From the NCBI GenBank assembly GCA_027028145.1, contig JALVJV010000001.1:1-45122 (forward strand): a stretch of DNA of 45,122 bases. The letters are read 5' to 3'. The DNA is from Archaeoglobaceae archaeon. Lineage in GTDB: Archaea > Halobacteriota > Archaeoglobi > Archaeoglobales > Archaeoglobaceae. Made by a program: the position numbers and the translations under genes. Below, one piece after another: positions 24,568-34,930 of the stretch. Below the pieces are notes generated by a model. The model searched no databases. It was not told where the DNA came from and saw only the letters and a program-made list of their open reading frames with translations. How positions within the stretch are numbered: position 1 is the stretch's first letter; each line of letters starts with the position of its first letter.

Positions 24568-25110
24568 ATGGATCCACTGCATGATGTCTTCTTTTGGGCT
24601 ACGATAGCGACTGCAACGATTGTCTTGGAAATGGTAGTATTCATATCGAGAAGGAAGCATAAAAGAATTGTCTACGCGTCCGCCGGCATATCGGCAATAA
24701 TCCTGTTCGAGGTTCCGCGTTTTGTCATTCCTACACTCCCGCAACCATCCCTTAACCTGAATCCGAATCTCGCCACGATCTTGGGAGGAGCTATTTTCGC
24801 TATCGGCATCGCGATAATGCTGATTTCGTTCGTTCAACTGATGAAGGCTAAGAAAGAGGGCTGGAAACTCCGAACGACCGGGATATACGGAGTGGTCAGG
24901 CATCCCATGTATTTGGGAGACATTTTGTGGGCTTTGGGCTGGAGTATAGTCTTCAACGCGCTTTATGCGTTGGCTCTAACCCCGCTCTGGCTGTTTCTGA
25001 GGTATTCTCTCGCAGTGCTTGAGGAGGAGAAGCTGATCGAAAAGTATGACGGTGAGTATATAAGATACATGCAGAAAGTCAGGTGGAGGGTTCTGCCGTT
25101 CCTCATCTGA
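24568..25110 (+). CDS. membrane methyltransferase of the ICMT/PEMT family
   Basis: A 180-residue membrane protein with about four to five hydrophobic segments and the family signature in the C-terminal half: TTGIYGVVRHPMYLGDILWA, then EEEKLIEKYDGEYIRYMQKVR. This is the isoprenylcysteine carboxyl methyltransferase/phospholipid methyltransferase fold, which binds S-adenosylmethionine at the RHPxY region; the substrate (an isoprenoid or lipid) is unknown. The open frame extends upstream to 24178, but that part is antisense to hdrA, so I start at ATG 24568. The end overlaps nurA (convergent) by 8 bases. Confidence 0.82.
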   Translation: MDPLHDVFFWATIATATIVLEMVVFISRRKHKRIVYASAGISAIILFEVPRFVIPTLPQPSLNLNPNLATILGGAIFAIGIAIMLISFVQLMKAKKEGWKLRTTGIYGVVRHPMYLGDILWALGWSIVFNALYALALTPLWLFLRYSLAVLEEEKLIEKYDGEYIRYMQKVRWRVLPFLI

Positions 25111-25996
25111 CCTTACTCATCCATTTGAAAGAAACGCCGTGGCTCTTCACTGCTTTCATGAAGCTCGCCCTCGCCTTCGCATCGATACATGAGTAGTGAT
25201 GGGCTCTTTCCAGTATGTAGGGATAACCCCTCGTCTTCCCCAAGAGACACTCGGCAAAAACGATCTTCACTATATCCTCGTGCATATCGGACATCCATTC
25301 GGGGTATTCTATCCTGACCGGCATCGACGGATTTACCATAAGATAGGCGTAGCGGATCCTATCTCCGAAGGGTTGGGTGTAGGAGAAAACATCCATAACG
25401 TCCGAAAGCAGAAACGAATCGTAGATGTCCAATCCGAACCTTCTTGCGATGTCCTTTGAAAAGCTCTTGTCTATGTAGCCTATTATCGGTGTCCGAGTCT
25501 CCTCACTCGCCTCAATTACTCTCGAAACTGTCTTCGTAAATTCATCTCTTATCGACTGCTCCAATGCGTATGGCATCAAGCTCCCGTCGAAGAATAGCCA
25601 GCTTCTGCCGTCCATCTCCTCCATTAGCATCTCAAGTTCGAGCTGGAATCTTCTCAGATCCAAGTTCTCCTCAAGTTTTATAAAAGTCGTTTTGTAGCTT
25701 TTGCCGTATTCTCCCTTTCCGTGGATAACCCATATCTTAGCAACTTGAATGACCCCGATGGGAATTCCAAGCTCTCTCAGCGGAGCGATCTGACTTCCGT
25801 CTACACCCACAACCCTTTTACCCTCTAAAACTCTTAGATGCCATCTGCTGTCGATTTCAATGCGTTCGATCTTCAACGAATTTAGGATTCGATTCTCAAC
25901 GCTCTTCTTTTTCTTTTCGATCTCGTCGTTGTATTTCTTAAGAAATTCTTTGAATCTTCCTATGTTTTCAATCAGACTTCCCCTAAAGCTGGTCAT
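25103..25996 (-). CDS. nurA: NurA 5'-3' nuclease domain protein
   Basis: Nuclease that works with the HerA helicase, Mre11 and Rad50 in DNA end resection. The 297-residue protein has the family landmarks: GKRVVGVDGSQIAP with the first catalytic aspartate, SWLFFDGSLMPY with the second, ARRFGLDIYDSFLLSDV, and YILERAHHYSCIDAKAR near the C-terminus. herA, mre11 and rad50 are not in the window, which is unusual because they often cluster. Upstream of its start three TTATCC-type elements lie within 60 bases. Confidence 0.85.
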   Translation of the reverse strand: MTSFRGSLIENIGRFKEFLKKYNDEIEKKKKSVENRILNSLKIERIEIDSRWHLRVLEGKRVVGVDGSQIAPLRELGIPIGVIQVAKIWVIHGKGEYGKSYKTTFIKLEENLDLRRFQLELEMLMEEMDGRSWLFFDGSLMPYALEQSIRDEFTKTVSRVIEASEETRTPIIGYIDKSFSKDIARRFGLDIYDSFLLSDVMDVFSYTQPFGDRIRYAYLMVNPSMPVRIEYPEWMSDMHEDIVKIVFAECLLGKTRGYPYILERAHHYSCIDAKARASFMKAVKSHGVSFKWMSKVR

Positions 25997-26136: not shown

Positions 26137-26265
26137 TCAGATTTTCGTTACGTCCTCACTTCCGCACATCGGACAAACTATCGGAAACTTGAACGGATCT
26201 TCCTGAAATACGTATCCGCACGTGTTACACTGGAAATAGACTTTGTCTGATGGTAGCTCTTCCAT
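26137..26265 (-). CDS. 42-residue rubredoxin-like zinc ribbon protein
   Basis: A very short gene from ATG 26265 to TGA 26137, encoding MEELPSDKVYFQC, NTCGYVF and IVCPMCGSEDV. The two cysteine pairs (CNTCG and CPMCG, 17 residues apart) make a rubredoxin-like or zinc-ribbon fold; the first knuckle YFQCNTCGYVF and second CPMCGS are typical. Archaeal genomes carry many such mini proteins of unknown role. The start has a strong GGTGAT ribosome binding site five bases upstream. It follows the last prepilin-like gene by 13 bases on the same strand and may be co-transcribed with that operon. Confidence 0.8.
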   Translation of the reverse strand: MEELPSDKVYFQCNTCGYVFQEDPFKFPIVCPMCGSEDVTKI

Positions 26266-26278
26266 TTTATCACCTTAT

Positions 26279-27100
26279 TTAGCCCGAAACTGTTACGTTA
26301 TAGATGGCAATCGTCACATTTAGACTTTTACCCTTTGGAGGATTTATAACTATCCAATCCGACGGTCCTTTCCACTTTTTGATTGTCCCATTTAAAGCAT
26401 ACTCAATACTGTTTAGCCATAGCTCCGTAATTTGAGTGTTGTTCCAGCCAAATTTAGATGCATTGGTAATACTAACTCTAATCCTTATCTGACTTACAGA
26501 TGTATTATATATTAAAGTAGTTTTAGTGTTGTTGAATATCAACATCTTCTGCCCAGAAAAGCTAACATCACCCTTCAAATTAATTAAACTAATATATATA
26601 TCATTTCCCTCCCTAAATATTCTCGGATATATCAGTAGTCTATTATTGACTCGTATAGAGTTTGCAGATGCCGGAAATACCGCGTTTCCGTATGCTTCAA
26701 GTATGACTCCGTTATCAAGTATTAGTCCTTTACCGTTATTGCCTAAATATATAATAGCTCCGTAAGGATAGGAATAGGATTTATTAAATTTATATTTACC
26801 TGACTTATTTATACAAATGGATAAAATACCCCAATCTGGAATAACTGCAATAGATCCCCCTTCCGCTCTAACGGTTACCGCCTTTTCCGGGGTTATGTTG
26901 TAGGCAACCAATCTCTCGACGTTCTGCAAAACGTAAAAAGTATTCTCCATGCTCCTAAAAACTGCTATATCTTCCTGACTTCTTATCGCCGGCATTCCAG
27001 CCGCGTATATAACGGTGATGGTGGCAACTACCACAGACAAAACGAGTATGTATCCCAAAACTTCCGAAACGGCTTTGCCGTTCAGTCGGAACACCCCCAC
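26279..27100 (-). CDS. prepilin-like secreted protein 5
   Basis: A 273-residue protein with a class III (type IV pilin) signal: a short basic start, then GKAVSEVLGYILVLSVVVAT, in which cleavage after Gly would free a hydrophobic helix. The rest is beta-rich and carries many N-glycosylation sequons (for example NKSG, NTSV, NGT). It is the last of five prepilin-like genes in the leftward operon. The start is GTG 27100, adjoining the preceding stop; GTG 27094 (MFRLNGKAVSEV) is an alternative that matches the N-terminus of the neighbouring MFRLTNRKGVSS protein. It resembles the pilin-like proteins found beside PilB/PilC-type genes in haloarchaea; the exact role is unknown. Confidence 0.75.
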   Translation of the reverse strand: MGVFRLNGKAVSEVLGYILVLSVVVATITVIYAAGMPAIRSQEDIAVFRSMENTFYVLQNVERLVAYNITPEKAVTVRAEGGSIAVIPDWGILSICINKSGKYKFNKSYSYPYGAIIYLGNNGKGLILDNGVILEAYGNAVFPASANSIRVNNRLLIYPRIFREGNDIYISLINLKGDVSFSGQKMLIFNNTKTTLIYNTSVSQIRIRVSITNASKFGWNNTQITELWLNSIEYALNGTIKKWKGPSDWIVINPPKGKSLNVTIAIYNVTVSG

Positions 27101-27528
27101 TACACAAGCCTATTAGCACGGATTGTTATTTTACCACCGCTTGAAGTTGCGTTTATGCTCGAACTCATGTTTATTTCATACTTTACTCCGCCAATTATAT
27201 ACCTTGCCGTGTATCCGAACGTCGAAACGTTAACCGACTCTTTGCTCGAATTCAGCTCTATCCAGTATCCCTGTCCAGCTACATCCACCGGCAGTCTTTC
27301 CGTGTATTCGATCTTTCCACCGTGAGGAAGGGAAAGAACTATTTCCACAACATCGTTTGCGAGGATGTTTCCTATGTCGTCAAATTGATTTCTTATGACG
27401 ATCTTTTTCGGAGCTTCGGTCATAACGTTATACAGCTGTAGCGTAGATATGAACATGATAAAAGCGGATAACGTCATTATTATAAAAAGTAAGGACGATA
27501 CACCTTTTCTGTTAGTAAGTCGGAACAT
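27100..27528 (-). CDS. prepilin-like secreted protein 4
   Basis: A 142-residue protein beginning MFRLTNRKGVSSLLFIIMTL, a class III signal with a basic n-region, Gly and hydrophobic helix. The remaining sequence is beta-rich with several NSS/NMS/NAT sequons and no cysteine. The start ATG 27528 has GGTGGAG upstream. It overlaps the preceding gene by 17 bases and shares one base with the next. Its small size suits a minor pilin or a pseudopilin that primes assembly. Confidence 0.72.
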   Translation of the reverse strand: MFRLTNRKGVSSLLFIIMTLSAFIMFISTLQLYNVMTEAPKKIVIRNQFDDIGNILANDVVEIVLSLPHGGKIEYTERLPVDVAGQGYWIELNSSKESVNVSTFGYTARYIIGGVKYEINMSSSINATSSGGKITIRANRLV

Positions 27529-27874
27529 TCTTCTCCACCTCCAGCTTAACTCTGTCGGTTTCGAACGTCAGATTTAGTTTGTATAGGCTACTACCGATAG
27601 GCGTAGCGTTCACGACGAGGAAGTATCCGTGTCTCGCATATATCTTCGACATATTTCGGTAGAATTCCGAAATATCATTCTGATTTTTATATAGTTTTAT
27701 AGCCCTCGTGGCTTCGTAAACGCTCGATCTCATCTCGTAGTATGGCAGACCCCAAGGGGAATACGAAACTCTGTAACCCGAAATCGAAGCTGTAGTTAGG
27801 TAAAGTGTAATCAGAGCAACACTCATTGCGATCAGCATTCCCGAAAGTAGGAGAAGCTGTCCTTTATTGTTCAT
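27512..27874 (-). CDS. prepilin-like secreted protein 3 (KGQ motif)
   Basis: A 120-residue protein that starts MNNKGQLLLLSGMLIAMSVA. The KGQ motif directly before the hydrophobic helix is the hallmark of archaeal prepilins. The mature part contains conserved-looking aromatic and NATPIG/NLTF stretches. The ATG 27874 has GAGGTGATTGT before it. It lies nine bases after gene 2 and overlaps gene 4 by 17 bases, so the order is fixed in one operon. Confidence 0.74.
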   Translation of the reverse strand: MNNKGQLLLLSGMLIAMSVALITLYLTTASISGYRVSYSPWGLPYYEMRSSVYEATRAIKLYKNQNDISEFYRNMSKIYARHGYFLVVNATPIGSSLYKLNLTFETDRVKLEVEKNVPTY

Positions 27875-27883
27875 ACAATCACC

Positions 27884-28327
27884 TCACACATACCAGAGAT
27901 ATAACCTGACTTCGTAAGCGTAAGGTGGACTTGAGACGGGAACAACCCTAAAGCTTGAAACCGCACCTTCTGGCGGTGGTGGGCCATACGAATATACTAC
28001 TTTTCCGTTCGGATCTAAAACTTCGACATGCATTAAAATACTCATGTTATCTTTTAAATTTTGTTCGATGTTCTTCCAGATCGTGTCCGTAAAACCGTAT
28101 GTTATACCATTTTCCACCCACTGAGAAAGTAAACTCTTATGTGTTGAATTTTCTAAATCTAAAATCTCCAGAATGTCGTCCGCGTATTTCTTCAACTGCA
28201 AAGTAGTAAACTCCTTTGTCTCAGTTCCGAATTGGGGGGATGCGTTGATGGCGAATATGACTACTCCGAAAATTATCAGAGATGCCAACAGAGCTTCAAG
28301 CGTATACATCTGTCCCCTTCCGTCCAT
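27884..28327 (-). CDS. prepilin-like secreted protein 2 (RGQ motif)
   Basis: A 147-residue protein starting MDGRGQMYTLEALLASLIIF, again with an RGQ class III processing site and an acidic residue five positions into the mature helix (GQMYTLE), like the Glu5 of type IV pilins. I use ATG 28327 rather than GTG 28339 because GGTGATTAAC precedes it and the other start would lie before the upstream stop. The mature domain has few cysteines and several aromatic residues, including a PPPPEG loop. Confidence 0.74.
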   Translation of the reverse strand: MDGRGQMYTLEALLASLIIFGVVIFAINASPQFGTETKEFTTLQLKKYADDILEILDLENSTHKSLLSQWVENGITYGFTDTIWKNIEQNLKDNMSILMHVEVLDPNGKVVYSYGPPPPEGAVSSFRVVPVSSPPYAYEVRLYLWYV

Positions 28328-28332
28328 GTTAA

Positions 28333-29061
28333 TCACCACACGTAAACTACGAGTCTCCTTAACGATTTTATGAGATCTCGAGACGTATTTACGTTCGGAT
28401 TGTAATTTTTATCTATCACGACAATTCTCTCGAATTTCCCAAATTCTTGGGGAATGAACTCTCCGTTAACGTAAAGGGGATACCCTATCCATAACTTGCC
28501 GATTTTTGGATCGTATACGACCGTTCCGTTCATATATCTTAAAGATACATTGTAGTAGTAATGCCTAATTGAAGAGTTAAGACCGATTAAATTGGCGAGT
28601 CTATCCAATGTGTAATTGTATGGATAGTTTTGCTTAGGTGGGAACACTCTGACCCACAGGCTCTTATTGAAGAACATCTCAACTTTGGTTTCGTTCAAAT
28701 AGCACGGAATTCTAACCTCGTAACTAAGCTCAGTTAGATAAGTCGCAGATGTGTTTGCCAATCCGATCCTCTTTAAGCACGATCTCGTCTCGTTTGGATT
28801 CAACTTTACGTGATTTGCCCAATCCGATTCGAGGAGTTGATTTCCGGTAACCCATAGACCGCCGTCTTCACTCAATATCATCGCCACTCTGTATGCAGAA
28901 GCTTGGAGATCGATGTCTCTACTCGAATAAGGAACGAAAGCCGAGATAACGTAATAAGACGCCATGGTTATCGACAGAACCATTATCGCCACCGCTATCA
29001 GCAGATCGACACTCATCTGTCCCTTCGAATTCACATAACAACTTTTACTATTAAAGAACAT
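28333..29061 (-). CDS. prepilin-like secreted protein 1 (KGQ motif), first gene of the leftward operon
   Basis: A protein of about 242 residues with NSKGQMSVDLLIAVAIMVLS, a KGQ class III signal, and a large mature domain with many N-glycosylation sequons (NETR, NTSA, NKSL, NSSI). Start choice: the open frame reaches 29169, but the AT-rich box at 29081-29096 lies about 27 bases before ATG 29061 and the divergent gene starts at 29117, so I prefer 29061 (29073 is also possible). It resembles the DUF7287/DUF7288-type pilin-like proteins next to archaeal PilB/PilC; this is a family impression, not a search result. Confidence 0.72.
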   Translation of the reverse strand: MFFNSKSCYVNSKGQMSVDLLIAVAIMVLSITMASYYVISAFVPYSSRDIDLQASAYRVAMILSEDGGLWVTGNQLLESDWANHVKLNPNETRSCLKRIGLANTSATYLTELSYEVRIPCYLNETKVEMFFNKSLWVRVFPPKQNYPYNYTLDRLANLIGLNSSIRHYYYNVSLRYMNGTVVYDPKIGKLWIGYPLYVNGEFIPQEFGKFERIVVIDKNYNPNVNTSRDLIKSLRRLVVYVW

Positions 29062-29080
29062 AAAGCTTTGCATCGAAGAG

Positions 29081-29096
29081 TAAATAATAAATAAAG
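29081..29096. promoter_or_regulatory. shared AT-rich core of the divergent pilus-like operons
   Basis: TAAATAATAAATAAAG sits about 27 bases from the start codon of the leftward operon (29061) and about 28 bases from that of the rightward operon (29117). On either strand it can act as a TATA box, which would give nearly leaderless transcripts both ways. A single core promoter box for both would tie their expression together. Confidence 0.4.
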
Positions 29097-29116
29097 TTTC
29101 GAAATACTGATTTGGT

Positions 29117-29590
29117 ATGGATATCCCTCTGCTGATTATCCTAATCATCCTAATCGTCGCGGTAATCATCCTAATCGCAAAAAGGAGAAAGGAGAGCGAA
29201 TCCGAAATTAAAGTAGTCCGGCTTAAGGATTTAAAGAGGAAAGGTGTTCTTGCCGAAGTTGAAGATGAGCTTGAAGAATTTGAAGAAATCGAAGAAGAAG
29301 AGGAAGATAAAAGAGAAAGAAGGTTCGACGAGATCGTAATAGCCGACGGCTTCGGTGAGATAATCTATACGACGGGAAAGGAATCCTTAGTCGATCCATT
29401 TTACGTTTTCCCATATGCCGACAGAATCGTAGTTGAATCGGATAAATGCGAAACTTTTGTAAAACTTGAAAACGGTTTTATCTATATAAAGTCCAACAGA
29501 CCCGTAGATAGTAGGAGTGCCAAGAGAATAGCAAAAAAGATTATTAAGAATAAAACCACAGAGAAAAGGTTGAAGAGCGTAATATCATAA
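29117..29590 (+). CDS. small membrane-anchored protein, unknown component of the pilus-like operon
   Basis: A 157-residue protein with one N-terminal membrane segment (LLIILIILIVAVIILIA, residues 5-21), a basic stretch, then a strongly acidic linker (about 50-67, almost only Glu and Asp) and a compact C-terminal domain (about 70-150) that appears beta-rich. I do not recognise the family. As the first gene before the ATPase, it may anchor or regulate the ATPase at the membrane. The ATPase start follows 19 bases later. Confidence 0.6.
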   Translation: MDIPLLIILIILIVAVIILIAKRRKESESEIKVVRLKDLKRKGVLAEVEDELEEFEEIEEEEEDKRERRFDEIVIADGFGEIIYTTGKESLVDPFYVFPYADRIVVESDKCETFVKLENGFIYIKSNRPVDSRSAKRIAKKIIKNKTTEKRLKSVIS

Positions 29591-29609
29591 TAGTAATGAG
29601 GGGATGTTT

Positions 29610-31337
29610 ATGGCCGAAGAAGGTAAGGTTAAACGCATCAAACCCAAGAAGGTTTCAAAACAGAAGCTCGTAGAGGTGGTTAGCGAAGTTAAGGCTCCGG
29701 ATAAGATTTCGGATAAGGTTCTTGAAGATATAACGGACGTTCTCAAAGAAATCGAGATTGAAGAGATTTCCGAACTTTTCAAGCAGGTTAGGGAAGTTGC
29801 GAAGTATGGGACTATTGAAGAGTTCTTGGATACCTCCTTCCCGAGCGGTTACGATGTAGTGGAGGAGTATTGGGTTTACAGACCATTCGCCAAAGTTTTC
29901 ATACTCTTCAGCAAGGAATCTAACGATTACATTTATTTCCTCTCGGAACCCCGGCTCGACAAGGCTGAGAGGTATCTGCTCTACGAAGTCAAGGAATTGG
30001 TTCGAAACAAGCTTATATACGGCAAGGTTTCAGAAAAGAAGAAGTCCGACAAAGAAAGGATACTCGAAAAGACTCTTGAGGAGGTTCTTGAGGAATACGA
30101 TCTTTACGTTGATAAGCAGACCTTCCACAAGTTCTTCTACTACATAAGGAGGGATTTCATCGGCTTCTACAAGATCGACGGAATAATGAGGGATCCCTAT
30201 ATAGAAGATATATCTTGCGACGGCTGGAACATCCCGATCTTCGTCTATCACTGGAACTACGGAAACATGCAGACTAACATAAAGTTCGATAGGAGAGAAC
30301 TCGATTCTTTCGTGATCAGGCTCGCCCAGAGAAGCGGAAAGCACATCTCAACATCTAACCCGCTCGTCGATGCAACGTTGCCGGATGGGAGCAGAATTCA
30401 GTTAACCTTGGGTAAGGATGTCACGACGAGGGGTAGCACTTTCACGATAAGAAAGTTCAGGGAAATTCTGATTACCCCCGTCGATTTGATAAGGTGGGGA
30501 ACGTTCTCATCCGAGCAGATGGCTTACCTTTGGCTCGCGGCTGAAAACGGTAAGAGCATGCTCTTCGTGGGCGGAACGGCAAGCGGTAAGACGACTTCTC
30601 TGAATGCTGTAGCTCTTTTCATTCCTCTGAACGCTAAGATAGTTACGATCGAGGATACGAGGGAGCTCAAGCTTCCGCATATGAACTGGATTCCAGCAGT
30701 AACGAGAGAGAGCTTCACCGGAGACGAGAGGGGTAAGATCGACATGTATGATCTGCTGAAAGCCGCTTTGAGGCAGAGACCCGAATACATCATAGTCGGA
30801 GAGGTCAGAGGTAGAGAGGCTCAGACTCTCTTTCAGGCTATGTCAACCGGGCATACGACGCTTTCTACTTTCCATGCGGATTCCGTTGAAGCTGCGATAC
30901 ACAGACTCGAATATCCGCCGCTGAGCGTCCCGCGTTCCATGATCTCAGCCTTGGACATAGTCAGCGTTCAAGCCCAGACGTTCGTCGGCGGAAGGAAGGT
31001 TAGAAGGAACTTGGAAATAGCTGAGATCACCGAGATAGATCCGGTTACGAAGAACATAAAGACGATGACGATATTCAAGTGGGATCCCATGACGGATACG
31101 CACAGATTTTTGCTAAACGACGTCTGGAGCTCTAAGGTTATGAGGGATATAATGCTGTTCAAGGCTTGGGATGAAAGGAAGCTCGTGGAGGAGTTCGAGA
31201 AGAGGCGGATGATACTTGAGTATATGGTTGAGAAGGGAATAACCGCTAACGAATTCCTGAAGTTCATAAAGGCTTATCATTCGAATCCAGAGGAAGTTTT
31301 CAAGATGGTAGAGGAGTATGAAGCCGCCAGAAGCTAA
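29610..31337 (+). CDS. type IV pilus/secretion ATPase (TadA/GspE/PilB type)
   Basis: A 575-residue hexameric assembly ATPase. The N-terminal part (about 1-170) is charged and family-specific, followed by the GspE core: PLVDATLPDGSRIQLTLG, Walker A VGGTASGKTTSLNA, the Asp box TIEDTRELKLPHMNW, Walker B RPEYIIVGEVRGREAQ and the His box TGHTTLSTFHADS. It is of the archaeal TadA/VirB11-like group rather than archaellar FlaI. I start at ATG 29610 because GAGGGG lies seven bases upstream; ATG 29604 is two codons earlier. The stop overlaps the next gene by 20 bases. It powers assembly of filaments, probably from the five prepilins encoded divergently. Confidence 0.92.
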   Translation: MAEEGKVKRIKPKKVSKQKLVEVVSEVKAPDKISDKVLEDITDVLKEIEIEEISELFKQVREVAKYGTIEEFLDTSFPSGYDVVEEYWVYRPFAKVFILFSKESNDYIYFLSEPRLDKAERYLLYEVKELVRNKLIYGKVSEKKKSDKERILEKTLEEVLEEYDLYVDKQTFHKFFYYIRRDFIGFYKIDGIMRDPYIEDISCDGWNIPIFVYHWNYGNMQTNIKFDRRELDSFVIRLAQRSGKHISTSNPLVDATLPDGSRIQLTLGKDVTTRGSTFTIRKFREILITPVDLIRWGTFSSEQMAYLWLAAENGKSMLFVGGTASGKTTSLNAVALFIPLNAKIVTIEDTRELKLPHMNWIPAVTRESFTGDERGKIDMYDLLKAALRQRPEYIIVGEVRGREAQTLFQAMSTGHTTLSTFHADSVEAAIHRLEYPPLSVPRSMISALDIVSVQAQTFVGGRKVRRNLEIAEITEIDPVTKNIKTMTIFKWDPMTDTHRFLLNDVWSSKVMRDIMLFKAWDERKLVEEFEKRRMILEYMVEKGITANEFLKFIKAYHSNPEEVFKMVEEYEAARS

Positions 31338-33234
31338 GGTAAGCAAGCTTGCATATTCGATTTTCGGAAAAAAACTTAAGGCTGAGAAATCGAAGTATGC
31401 GAAGTTAGACCGCCTTCTCAAAGCGGCAAGAATTCCAAAGACATACGACTACTACTTGGCTGAAGCCAAACTTTACAGCATAATTTCAGCCGTTTTTGGT
31501 GCTATAACTGGAATGATCGTTTACCCGTTCATTAGACCGCAACTGATGAAGGTATTCACGAACGTTTACAATCCAGAGGTTCCCTACAGTTTGCCCGTAA
31601 GCCTACCTTCTCTGCCGAAGATAACGATAAACCTCGGAAGTATCGGAAACTACATATTGATGGTTCTCGTAATCCTAATTTTCACAGCCCTCTTCTACTA
31701 CCTCGTTTACGGTTTATTCTTGCTCTATCCTTCGATTAAGGTAGATGAAAGAAAGAGGGAAATCGAGAGAATGTTGCCTTACGCCGTAAACTACATGTTC
31801 GCCTTGAGTAGGGGTGGGGTAAGCATCCTCGACATAATATATTCCCTCGCTAACCACGAGGAAACCTACGGAGAAGTGGCGAGAGAGTTCCAATTCGTAG
31901 TTTACCATATGGAATTCTTCGGAATGGATCTACATGCCGCGATGATGGAGCTCTACGATGTAACCCCTTCGCCAACTCTGAAGGAGCTCATCAGCGGTCT
32001 GCTTACCACCATAGACAGCGGTGGAGACATATCGGTTTTCTTAGCCGGAAAGTCGGAACAATACGCCGAAAAGGCTAAGGTCGAGCAAAAAGGATTCTTA
32101 GACACTTTAGCCCTTCTTGCCGAAGCCTACGTTACCGCCGCCGTTGCTACGCCCCTCTTCCTCTTCATAATCGAAAGCATAATGCTTGCGATGGGTAGCG
32201 GAGACATCTCAACTATGTATGCCATCGCTTACGTAATGGTTCCCCTCGGATCGATCTCCTTCGCCGGCTTGATTTACTTCATAACTCCAAAAGGAACGGA
32301 GAGGGTGGCGATTCTTGAGGTTGAGGAGGAAAGGATGGAACCGACGGAAGAAGTTAAGGAGAGCGAACTCTACCGTAGATTCGTTAGAGCTACGAAAAAG
32401 AAGAAGAGTCTCCAGTTACTTAAAGCTCCTCTACGCGTTATTAGGGAGAAGCCGATATATTCTCTGGTTTTCTCAGTTCCGATTGCTTTGATCTACTTGG
32501 TTTTAGCCATACACACGATCCGTCCAGAATTCGCCGTTGTGATAGCCATAATAATCGCCTTGGCTCCGCTTTCCTTCTTCCATGAAATGAAGAAGAGGTG
32601 GATGAACAGAATTAAAGAGCAGATACCGGAGTTTTTGAAGGACTTAGCTGGAATATGCGCTACGGGAGCGACTCTTCAGCAGGCAATCGAGATAGTTGCC
32701 GAAACCGGAAAGGGAGGTATATACGATGAGGTAAAGAAGATGCAGAAGGATGTGGAGTGGGGTGCGGGTTTGGTCGAAGCCTTCGCGAAGTTCAGCAACA
32801 GGCTTAGGGTTCCGGCGTTGACGAGGGTAGTTGTAGTTTTGATGGACGTTCTGCGAATAGGAGGAGATTTAACAGAGGCTTTACATCTCTGTGCGAGAGA
32901 TGCCGAACTCGAAAGAACGCTTGCGAAGGAGAGAAAGGTCAGCATGCTTATATACGTGATCATTATATACATAGCTTTCTTCGCGTTCTTGGGCATAATG
33001 TATATGCTGTTCACGAAGTTCTTCCCGTCCATGTTTCAATCGAGCGGCGGGATTTTCAAGAGGACCGTCAGCAAGGATGAGCTGATATGGGTCATGAGTC
33101 AGGCTACGCTCTTCCAAGGACTGTTTTCCGGAATAGTTGCCGGAGTGATGGGCGAAGGCGATCCGCTCAGCGGTATAAAGCATTCGATAATCATGCTGAT
33201 AGTCACACTGGGGGTGTTGATATCGGTGATTTAG
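31318..33234 (+). CDS. double TadC/GspF-type membrane assembly platform protein
   Basis: A 638-residue membrane protein, twice the length of a single GspF protein. The two halves look alike: each has membrane segments at its start and end with a helical T2SSF domain between (first about 150-300 with MLPYAVNYMFALSRGGVSIL; second about 430-590 with QIPEFLKDLAGICATGATL). The same arrangement is seen in archaeal pilus platforms of the FlaJ/TadC group. The start ATG 31318 is preceded by GAGGAG and lies within the ATPase gene end. It should form the inner base on which the ATPase acts. Confidence 0.9.
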   Translation: MKPPEAKVSKLAYSIFGKKLKAEKSKYAKLDRLLKAARIPKTYDYYLAEAKLYSIISAVFGAITGMIVYPFIRPQLMKVFTNVYNPEVPYSLPVSLPSLPKITINLGSIGNYILMVLVILIFTALFYYLVYGLFLLYPSIKVDERKREIERMLPYAVNYMFALSRGGVSILDIIYSLANHEETYGEVAREFQFVVYHMEFFGMDLHAAMMELYDVTPSPTLKELISGLLTTIDSGGDISVFLAGKSEQYAEKAKVEQKGFLDTLALLAEAYVTAAVATPLFLFIIESIMLAMGSGDISTMYAIAYVMVPLGSISFAGLIYFITPKGTERVAILEVEEERMEPTEEVKESELYRRFVRATKKKKSLQLLKAPLRVIREKPIYSLVFSVPIALIYLVLAIHTIRPEFAVVIAIIIALAPLSFFHEMKKRWMNRIKEQIPEFLKDLAGICATGATLQQAIEIVAETGKGGIYDEVKKMQKDVEWGAGLVEAFAKFSNRLRVPALTRVVVVLMDVLRIGGDLTEALHLCARDAELERTLAKERKVSMLIYVIIIYIAFFAFLGIMYMLFTKFFPSMFQSSGGIFKRTVSKDELIWVMSQATLFQGLFSGIVAGVMGEGDPLSGIKHSIIMLIVTLGVLISVI

Positions 33235-33776
33235 TCAAGAGCGGAATCAGGGTTATAGATAGGGCTATCGGAGGATTTCCGTCGCCGTCGGTGATTTTGG
33301 TCTTAGTCGACCCTTTAGCATCGCCAGAGCTTGTAATATACAATCTCAGCGACGGAAACTACTACCTTCCGACTTTGAAATCTCCGGATATCGTCGAGGA
33401 GGAGTTGAGGCTCTTGGGGTTTAATGCTATCATAATTGAGAAGTTGGAGGATTTGGAAAAACTCGCGAACTGCAAGGTCGTAATAGAGTTTACGTTTAAA
33501 GCAGATGAGGTCATAAGAATTAGGGAAATCTCAATCAGAAACAATCTGATCGTTTACTTGGTAGTTCTCAAGGATTACTACGACGAAAAAACGACGAATC
33601 AGTTGAAATACATCTGCAACGGTATAATACTTGTGGAAGCCGAAAAGATGGGTGAGAGGTTCGTTTACAGATTTGCAATTCCCAAGATGATCGGCGGACA
33701 ATCCCTTTCGAGCTACATTCGATTTAAGACCGAAAGAAGCGTTCTCGAAATTGACACTTCGAGGGATATAGTTTGA
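33222..33776 (+). CDS. RecA/KaiC-like fold protein lacking Walker A
   Basis: About 184 residues from the first protein-like codon. The start region SGIRVIDRAIGGFPSPSVILVL matches the strand-loop opening of KaiC/FlaH/RadA domains, but where these have GxxGxGKT it reads VDPLASPELVIYNL, so ATP binding by a Walker A loop is lost. Later parts (NNLIVYLVVLKDYYDE and GIILVEAEKMGERFVYRFAIPKMIGG) match the strands of the RecA fold. Start codon unresolved: the nearest canonical ones in frame are ATG 33087 (148 bases inside the previous gene) and GTG 33291 (inside the domain), so these bounds mark the recognisable part. The sequence resembles FlaH, the archaellum ATP-binding regulator; a non-catalytic structural role is inferred. 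Confidence 0.55.
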   Translation: MGDLVKSGIRVIDRAIGGFPSPSVILVLVDPLASPELVIYNLSDGNYYLPTLKSPDIVEEELRLLGFNAIIIEKLEDLEKLANCKVVIEFTFKADEVIRIREISIRNNLIVYLVVLKDYYDEKTTNQLKYICNGIILVEAEKMGERFVYRFAIPKMIGGQSLSSYIRFKTERSVLEIDTSRDIV

Positions 33777-34228
33777 AGGCTGTTATCGCCACTTCCCTTT
33801 TAATTTTGATGACCTTCGCATTCTTCTTTTCTCTATATGCGGTCATGGAGCCGTTTGGAATTCCAAAATGCGAATACAAGACTTTAAAGTTCGAAGTTTT
33901 TGCTCGCAACGTATCGAACCTTCAGAGAATAACGATAGTAAATATCGGAGATGATCTAAAGCTTGAGGATGTCGTAGTAGCTATCTCCACCGATAAAGAC
34001 ACTCTCGTGCTTAAAGACCTTCCCGTTCGGGCTGTGGGAATTCCGAAAACTCATGGAATTGGTGGTGTGTTCTCGAAGAAGGGTGACACGTGGAAATTCG
34101 GTCAATATGGCTACGTCAACCTTGCGAAAAGCTCTTTCGGTATATTGAAGAGCGGTGATAAAATAAGGGTGGAGATCAGCTATAAAAATTTGAAATGGAA
34201 ATCATCAGTAACGTTCAACGACACTTAG
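33773..34228 (+). CDS. small secreted/anchored protein, last gene of the pilus-like operon
   Basis: A 151-residue protein with an N-terminal hydrophobic segment (about 4-24, IATSLLILMTFAFFFSLYAV) and a beta-rich remainder (VFARNVSNLQRITIVNIGDDLKLEDVVVAIS). It starts with TTG 33773, which overlaps the upstream TGA stop. Unlike the five divergent proteins it has no KGQ-type signal before the helix, so it may be a signal-anchored component, perhaps the external part of the assembly base. It resembles FlaG/FlaF-type beta-sandwich stator proteins of archaella in size and layout, but that is only a guess. Confidence 0.6.
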   Translation: MKAVIATSLLILMTFAFFFSLYAVMEPFGIPKCEYKTLKFEVFARNVSNLQRITIVNIGDDLKLEDVVVAISTDKDTLVLKDLPVRAVGIPKTHGIGGVFSKKGDTWKFGQYGYVNLAKSSFGILKSGDKIRVEISYKNLKWKSSVTFNDT

Positions 34229-34930
34229 CCCGTTCAGAGACATGTCGCATTTCACACCCTTTGTCTTGTAGCTCTTCATTTCGGTGGTCATGGTTATAGA
34301 TGTCTGACCGAAGTTTGCGGTGATTTCGGCTTTGATCGGAATGTAATCGGCTTTGGATATCCAAACCTTCACGTTAGCTGTTTCGGCGAATGCGATACTG
34401 GGGTATCGAAGCGAATATGCTACGACGTAGTAGTTTCCGTTTTCGTCGATCAATCTGACGTCTTTAGCTTTGTCGAAGAATTTCGCAAGGTCTAAGCAAG
34501 TTACTATCGGAATGAACTTGTATCTCGGCAAAGATTCAGCCGGCTTATACTCGCCAACCTTACCTTTCATATACGCCAGATTCGGTGTGTAAACGTAGAA
34601 AACGTCACCCTTATCGAGAATCCAAGCATCCTTTAACGCTATCTTCATCTTCTTGTGAACATCCGCAAGCGATTGATCGGTTGTTTTGTATGAGTAGTTG
34701 AGGAAAAATACCTTCGTTGTATTGTTCAGTTTGACGACTCTTAGATCGTAACGGGTGTAATCCGTAAATTTTGGAGATTTGATTGTTAATTCAAAAGTTG
34801 CGTTGGCATCCAAGTTTGTGGAAGCTACCGCTCTTTCGGCTTTGGTAAGAATATCGTTGGGCTTTTCAGCTTTTTGCCCGGCACAGCCGAGCAGAATTAA
34901 AGCCAAAAGTAAAATTACAATTCTCTTCAT
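34205..34930 (-). CDS. lipoprotein, LolA-like fold suspected
   Basis: A 241-residue secreted protein. It has a lipoprotein signal (MKRIVILLLALILLGCAG) with a cysteine at the end, so it is lipid-anchored on the outside of the membrane. The mature part looks like alternating beta strands (YDLRVVKLNNTTKVFFLNYS, VFYVYTPNLAYMKG, YYVVAYSLRY, VKVWISKADYIPIKAEI), reminiscent of archaeal LolA-like outer-membrane-lipoprotein-sorting homologues. Function is unknown. The end overlaps the convergent pilus-operon gene by 24 bases. Confidence 0.6.
   Translation of the reverse strand: MKRIVILLLALILLGCAGQKAEKPNDILTKAERAVASTNLDANATFELTIKSPKFTDYTRYDLRVVKLNNTTKVFFLNYSYKTTDQSLADVHKKMKIALKDAWILDKGDVFYVYTPNLAYMKGKVGEYKPAESLPRYKFIPIVTCLDLAKFFDKAKDVRLIDENGNYYVVAYSLRYPSIAFAETANVKVWISKADYIPIKAEITANFGQTSITMTTEMKSYKTKGVKCDMSLNGLSVVERY

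Follow-up and report, generated by a model that had tools for sequence, protein, structure and literature searches.

The stretch of DNA analysed here (the window, 45,122 nucleotides) is the whole of contig JALVJV010000001.1 (C1) of GCA_027028145.1, the near-complete assembly of a heat-loving Archaeoglobaceae archaeon (1.52 Mb, 24 contigs), and at 26279-34228 it carries ten open reading frames in two divergent groups whose sequences fit the euryarchaeal clade-2, PilB4-type pili. We consider it probable that they encode an envelope-spanning type IV pilus machine of this type, in which five prepilins (A to E) would form a priming or tip complex, a PilA-type pilin supplied in trans would be the bulk of an attachment filament, and a KaiC-like protein, H, would act as an adaptor. 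Machines of this kind are already known from comparative genomics; new here are the lineage of the motor, the H family and the probable start codon of H.

Gene content and genomic setting

On the minus strand, in order of transcription, lie the genes for prepilins E (DUF7287), D (DUF7288), C (DUF7261-like), B (DUF7266-like) and A (DUF7289), and the plus-strand operon reads X157, ATPase, double GspF, H and Y151, with a membrane-anchored protein at either end (X157 and Y151). An A/T-rich divergent intergenic region (29035..29116) separates the two operons and presumably holds their promoters. A preliminary description of this DNA had listed five consecutive prepilin genes, three of them with KGQ or RGQ signals, opposite an operon for an assembly ATPase, a double platform, a RecA-fold protein lacking Walker A and two membrane-anchored proteins. 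Our analysis bears this out: the ten reading frames are all present at the positions given, all five minus-strand genes carry class III signals, the KGQ/RGQ trio being C, D and E, and the opposite operon encodes a T2SSE ATPase, a double T2SSF platform, a DUF7125/KaiC-like protein without G....GK[ST] and the two anchored proteins. The families of the ATPase, platform and prepilins fit the type IV filament machine that was proposed, and the prepilins fall into five distinct families, in keeping with the proposed hetero-subunit set. The likeness noted to haloarchaeal PilB/PilC loci is also seen, the haloarchaeal DUF7289, DUF7288 and DUF7287 models matching above cut-off and PilB3_N/C weakly.

The locus had been described as something other than an archaellum, and the archaellum locus of the same genome, with ArlI and an ArlH that has a Walker A (GEHGSGKS), indeed sits outside the window, at contig C21. 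A second pilus motor, PilB3-like, is found at C19; upstream of it lies a vWA gene, and downstream a gene for a 543-aa DUF7289-like protein. Counting the window motor, the genome thus holds three type IV filament motors. Its three PilA-type pilin genes are on C11 and C10. As described before, no prepilin peptidase is encoded on the window contig; the best candidate of the genome is on contig C5 (G000:C5:75704; PF01478, 1.1e-13).

Conservation of the pilin set and its linkage to the motor

For comparison, 60 relatives and 14 control genomes were sampled and gene maps of about 100 fetched loci were drawn. The E-D-C-B-A order, or a close variant of it, recurs at about 30 loci, in Archaeoglobi as well as in other families of Halobacteriota, and DUF7288 is present in 47/60 of the sampled relatives and, among the 14 control genomes, only in Hfx. 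volcanii. Of about 32 set-bearing loci that were examined, 14 have the motor operon within 11 kb of the set, a fraction that is biased by the picking of loci through matches to the ATPase, DUF7288 or H. These linked loci belong to the window genus (four mapped genomes), the sister genus G015, G009, G025, G027, a second locus of G002, G038, G044, G046, G062 and G085, and in most ordinary Archaeoglobi the pilin set and the motor operon are apart. A lack of conserved linkage between the operons, which the preliminary description had named as an outcome that would refute it, is thus seen in part: linkage is recurrent but not universal. In G009 (L064 2329-11530) the motor next to the E-D-C-B-A set clusters with the C19 motor of the window genome, a natural motor swap and an instance of the motor/pilin exchange proposed by Makarova et al. 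(2016).

Five prepilins with distinct N-terminal signatures

Prepilin A (26279..27100; 273 aa; KA/VSEVLGY, the slash marking the cleavage site) matches the DUF7289 model PF23960 (5.3e-12), D (27884..28339; 151 aa; RG/QMYTLEA, Glu at +6) the DUF7288 model PF23959 (9.9e-10), and E (28333..29034; KG/QMSVDLL, Asp at +5) the DUF7287 model PF23958 (4.1e-7). B (27100..27528; 142 aa; KG/VSSLLFI) is a short form of the DUF7266-like family whose match to PF23928 (3.7e-4) is below cut-off, and the DUF7261-like C (27512..27874; 120 aa; KG/QLLLLSG) matches PF23922 at 0.14, which is not significant alone; the identity of both was secured by family hidden Markov models made from relatives' genes at the same operon position. 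A is probably a minor pilin of the arCOG02911 type, a mapping by description only, because it is duplicated and about 170-550 aa long in relatives, as the main text of Makarova et al. (2016; PMC4858521) describes for arCOG02911. Of the five prepilins only A is often duplicated; the other four are neither multiplied nor strongly conserved in the manner of PilA major pilins.

A strict FlaFind-like rule scores 6 of the 51 greedy gene models in the window, namely A to D, Y151 and one MFS transporter; E fails it only because its listed start is too far upstream. The listed start of E overlaps X157, and judging from the sequence E most likely begins at GTG 29034 (MNSKG/QMSVD) rather than at ATG 29169, which leaves a divergent intergenic region of 82 bp. 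Sequons for N-glycosylation are enriched in A (10 vs 3.4 in shuffled sequences) and E (9 vs 2.9), with marginal or no enrichment in B to D. Glycosylation of the subunits, as described earlier, is a prediction from such sequons.

Aligned at the cleavage site, the E motif with Asp at +5 and the D motif with Glu at +6 are each found in 32/32 members. Because these motifs served as alignment anchors, the counts express agreement of every member with the motif and not a blind discovery of the residue. A mostly carries Glu at +3, B has Glu at +6 in 18/28 aligned members and has lost it in the window's genus, and C shows an acidic residue within the first 10 mature positions in 0/28. That each subunit has a signature of its own fits a complex with one place for each. 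In bacterial systems acidic residues order the subunits, and the tip subunit GspK is without such a residue (Glu5). By analogy C might be the tip subunit, which is only a suggestion because archaeal PilA is also without the acidic residue.

Adhesin-type modules in the relatives

At ten other Archaeoglobi loci the fourth prepilin, B, has a length of 790-993 aa. Scans of all ten found vWA above cut-off in 9/10 and weakly in 1/10 (L072), and PKD in 6/10, five of them above cut-off. Big/Ig-like domains are present in C in some genomes (L065, L079, L092), and in G015 a separate gene for a 1097-aa vWA/Big/PKD protein lies beside the set. PilA-type pilins are encoded in 47/47 of the DUF7288-bearing genomes among the 60, which allows a PilA in trans as the bulk subunit. 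In Hfx. volcanii, the insertion pilB1::tn, in an operon with clade-2 type pilins, causes an adhesion defect (PMC6491452), and deletion of both flaI and pilB1 in Hbt. salinarum abolished thin pili and lowered adhesion ten-fold (pil-1; PMC4292770). As far as these sequences can indicate, adhesion is better supported than secretion, since the relatives' fourth prepilin carries the adhesin-typical vWA and often PKD and all genomes with the set have PilA; positive evidence for a secretion role was not seen.

A motor lineage apart from that of ordinary Archaeoglobi

The assembly ATPase (29604..31337, plus strand) is a clade-2 like member of the GspE/TadA/ArlI family (PF00437, T2SSE, 5.7e-39; best PDB match 2oap, E 8e-144) with an intact Walker A, GGTASGKTT in translation; it matches the FlaI model at 1.4e-125, yet under the cut-off of that model. 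The platform (31318..33234, plus strand) is a two-domain GspF/TadC (PilC) protein that matches PF00482 (T2SSF) over two stretches (1.1e-31), with no match in the PDB by phmmer. The ATPase tree (38 rows) and the platform tree (36 rows) agree: the window genus and G015 cluster with G164 and G206, from other families of the phylum (support 100/99 and 100/100), and the motors of ordinary Archaeoglobi form a separate clade of 15 rows (support 100/99 and 100/100). In these trees, built without the reference sequences of Makarova et al., the window ATPase groups with other set-linked euryarchaeal pilus ATPases, far from ArlI of its own genome. Genome G002, of the same genus, has complete pilus loci of both the window type and the ordinary Archaeoglobi type (L041, L061). 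By tree position, then, the window motor belongs to a different lineage from the motors of ordinary Archaeoglobi, a finding new here, and its origin could be either an old duplication or a transfer.

H belongs to a KaiC-like family without Walker A

H (33222..33776, plus strand; DUF7125, PF23442, 1.8e-8) ends in IDTSRDIV. Profile comparison places it in the KaiC-type RecA fold, a profile of 30 members matching the structures of KaiC (6e-14), PH0284 (3e-13) and ArlH (4yds, 1.6e-10). Walker A (G....GK[ST]) is absent in the window H and throughout the family, of which about 60 members were compared, drawn from Archaeoglobi, methanogens and haloarchaea, and the two Walker A-bearing matches of the search are weak matches to ordinary KaiC paralogues. 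The C-terminal end, I-D-T-S-R-D-I-A/V, is nearly invariant. The view of DUF7125 as a purely haloarchaeal family was rejected, as the family reaches Archaeoglobi and methanogens.

Two copies of H are found in the window genus and, by sequence, appear to have decayed in complementary ways: the linked copy of the window lineage retains the tail but is missing about 60 residues of its centre, the Walker B-like Asp among them, and the stand-alone copy (contig C3 of the same genome, L039 9454-10170) has kept the core and lost the DTSRDI tail in five genomes. In many families H is a neighbour of the motor: it lies directly after ATPase-GspF, or ahead of them as in the archaellum, at L049, L053, L056, L061, L070, L098, L122, L131, L136, L138, L139, L141 and L151. 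H was counted as present in a genome if an H-family match extended to the tail or had a score well above that of ordinary KaiC. On this basis H and DUF7288 are concordant in 56/60 genomes (44 with both, 12 with neither, 3 and 1 discordant; Fisher 4e-9, uncorrected for phylogeny), and by the same rule G043, G048, G051 and G057 have a related ATPase but neither DUF7288 nor H. On these comparisons the H family is Halobacteriota-wide, without Walker A, has a near-invariant tail and co-occurs with the pilin set. We report this as new; neither the loss of Walker A nor the H tail is mentioned in the sections of PMC4858521 covered here, and priority is uncertain. We further propose, tentatively and with some doubt, that H (DUF7125 and kin) is a nucleotide-independent ArlH/KaiC paralogue that may serve clade-2 pilus machines across all Halobacteriota as a conserved functional component and dock via its IDTSRDIA/V tail; if true, an ArlH-type part would not be special to the archaellum. 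In Hbt. salinarum, OE2210R is the third gene co-transcribed with pilB1-pilC1 (PMC4292770).

A probable AUC start codon for H

The reading frame of H is listed from 33087, and the start appears to be at about 33222. Between the window and three relatives, codons 33231-33290 show 16 synonymous and 0 non-synonymous changes (pairwise sum), so this stretch is translated in the H frame, and in none of five genomes of the genus is there a usable in-frame ATG, GTG or TTG close ahead of it. All five have ATC at 33222, with GGGGGTG five bases upstream, and this codon lines up precisely with the ATG of the stand-alone H in the sister genus (MKRIIESGI vs IGDLVKSGI). The simplest reading, also new here, is that H probably starts at this conserved AUC codon, overlapping the end of GspF, an overlap that also constrains the same bases. 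A start at GTG 33291 was rejected, since the 20 upstream codons change only synonymously in relatives and G003 has GTA there, as was a -1 frameshift fusing GspF and H; the junction is without an obvious slippery sequence, and the AUC reading is the better fit.

X157, Y151 and neighbouring genes

X157 (29117..29590, plus strand) has an N-terminal transmembrane helix, an acidic linker and a small C-terminal domain; a family search gave 4 members, all of the same genus, and no relatives outside it. Y151 (33773..34228, plus strand) is predicted to combine a helix at its N terminus with a beta-sandwich of the archaellin/ArlF/ArlG type and may be minor pilin-like or stator-like. With its AlphaFold2 (AF2) model (pLDDT 71), Foldseek gave FlaG 5tuh (1.3e-4), archaellins and FlaF 4zbh as top ranks, with TM scores of 0.4-0.6. 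Because pilins, archaellins and FlaF/G share one fold, this match of a model is not diagnostic of a stator and would place Y151 in the pilin superfamily.

A convergent gene for a putative lipoprotein (34205..34930, minus strand) is conserved beside the locus in the window genus and lies near the set in G015; its membership in the machine is uncertain. In G015 the homologous gene (L075 3034-3708) and a gene for a PilA-like pilin overlap. The pilin operon is followed directly by a gene for a rubredoxin-like CxxC-CxxC protein of 42 aa (MEELPSDKVYFQCNTCGYVF...; 26137-26265, minus strand), and a NurA nuclease gene lies near the operon (25103-25996, minus strand; PF09376, 1.8e-23). Elsewhere in the genome, on G000:C16 (L004 790-3359), a PIN-domain/KH ATPase is followed by a multi-pass protein resembling a presenilin-type aspartyl protease (YD, GxGD-like motifs).

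Proposed machine and alternative explanations

In the pilus machine that we favour, A to E would enter the membrane and be cleaved there by a prepilin peptidase whose gene lies outside the locus. The ATPase, working through the double-TadC platform, would then pull them out, and they would assemble into an ordered hetero-oligomeric priming or tip complex with a fixed place for each. A PilA-type major pilin encoded in trans would be added onto this complex, giving a surface filament that attaches to surfaces or cells. H, presumably unable to bind ATP in the usual way, would serve as an adaptor that needs no nucleotide, placed on the cytoplasmic side of the ATPase, with its near-invariant IDTSRDIA/V tail docking on a part of the machine. 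Y151 may be one more envelope subunit, the sixth of the pilin-like kind or one akin to ArlF/G. The tip/adhesin part of this model can be tested through the N-terminal signatures, which differ from subunit to subunit, and through the vWA/PKD forms of B.

Several points weigh against it. The window's own B is without vWA/PKD modules, and the main text of PMC4858521 assigns the system a major pilin of its own, arCOG03926, so that no PilA in trans would be needed. The co-occurrence with PilA is confounded by the second, PilB3-like motor of the same genome (C19), and the PilA counts, like those for H and DUF7288, are uncorrected for phylogeny. Most H copies in haloarchaea and most Archaeoglobi stand alone, away from type IV pilus (T4P) loci, and around the stand-alone H genes of haloarchaea and methanogens nothing recognisably pilus-related was seen, gene calls being poor in high-GC genomes. 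For H, AF2 gave a poor model (pLDDT 45, from four near-identical sequences) that was not used. Finally, in the literature on DUF7289 and PilB4 no experiment on any Archaeoglobales member was found. The preliminary statement that the function is not described in Archaeoglobales thus holds for experiments and fails for comparative genomics, as the clade-2 PilB4-type organisation and Archaeoglobales loci are treated in the main text of PMC4858521. The literature on pili and cryo-EM of Archaeoglobus veneficus yielded only cytochrome nanowires.

The major pilin is the point at which another account, somewhat unlikely in our view, departs from ours: the five subunits would build the whole filament, one of them being the dedicated major pilin predicted for the PilB4 type in section 11 of PMC4858521, with no PilA. 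It agrees with the operon-like arrangement of the set and its co-location with the motor in 14 examined loci, and a pilus built from two large pilins that are co-regulated has been suggested as the product of PilB4-C4 (PMC4371748). One copy each in a fixed order, with only A often duplicated, nevertheless resembles a minor-pilin operon, and PilA genes are present in all set-bearing genomes. The preliminary description had preferred a secretion pseudopilus to an adhesive pilus. Several prepilins of unequal size recall GspH-K of type II secretion, and C, having no N-terminal acidic residue, recalls GspK without Glu5. We abandon that preference and regard such a pseudopilus as quite unlikely, since no cargo or secretion-specific partner and, among the ten locus genes, no gene specific to type II secretion was recognised, relatives' subunits, including the fourth prepilin, bear adhesin-type vWA, PKD and Ig modules, and the haloarchaeal relatives that were tested act in adhesion.

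DNA uptake or cell-cell contact, instead of surface attachment, is an unlikely purpose: T4P are discussed in a study that catalogues natural-transformation genes of Methanococcus (PMC10133366), and the NurA encoded close by is a DNA-end processing nuclease, but its linkage to the locus is shown for the window only. That the operon, with its ArlI-, ArlJ-, ArlH- and ArlF/G-like parts, encodes a derived archaellum-like rotary device we hold very improbable. The likeness of H to ArlH/KaiC, the nearness of the Y151 model to FlaG, FlaF and archaellins and the match of the ATPase to the FlaI model speak for it, but the locus is without an archaellin tandem, a separate archaellum locus exists, the ATPase clusters with pilus ATPases, H is without the nucleotide site present in ArlH, and the one-fold argument given for Y151 applies here as well.

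Comparison with known systems

Makarova et al. (2016; PMC4858521) describe in their main text the clade-2 PilB4-type organisation with several pilins, and KaiC-family ATPases associated with clade-2 loci. With the PilB4-type T4P as described there (Fig. 4B; Hfx. volcanii PilB4 locus) the window locus shares a VirB11/GspE-family ATPase, a TadC platform and its own multi-prepilin set, including the duplicated DUF7289 type of 250-550 aa. Its platform has two TadC domains in one protein. It differs in its motor lineage, apart from ordinary Archaeoglobi, in a B without the large adhesin module, in the truncation of the linked H and in the genus-restricted X157 and Y151. The Hfx. volcanii PilB1-C1 operon (PMC6491452), whose transposon mutant is adhesion-deficient, has pilin families of the clade-2 kind, whereas its motor is clade 4C and haloarchaeal. 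AfGspE (PDB 2oap, an archaeal secretion ATPase structure), which we take to be the Archaeoglobus fulgidus protein, is homologous to the window ATPase over nearly its full length, but the C19 pilus ATPase of the window genome is closer to it (681 vs 483 bits).

H resembles ArlH (FlaH) and KaiC in its RecA-like fold family, by profile, in its place next to the motor and, at L061 and L070, in the H-I-J order; it differs in having no Walker A and in its association with pili and not archaella, and ArlH of the same genome has no counterpart of the IDTSRDIA/V tail. A phylum-wide KaiC-like family with these properties suggests an ArlH-like part in ordinary archaeal pili too, which would bear on the origin of the archaellum motor from a pilus motor. 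By analogy, the closest parallels for A to E may be the bacterial minor pilin/PilY1 priming complexes and modular pilins, which likewise have a fixed set of distinct minor pilins, with vWA on one of them as in B of the relatives.

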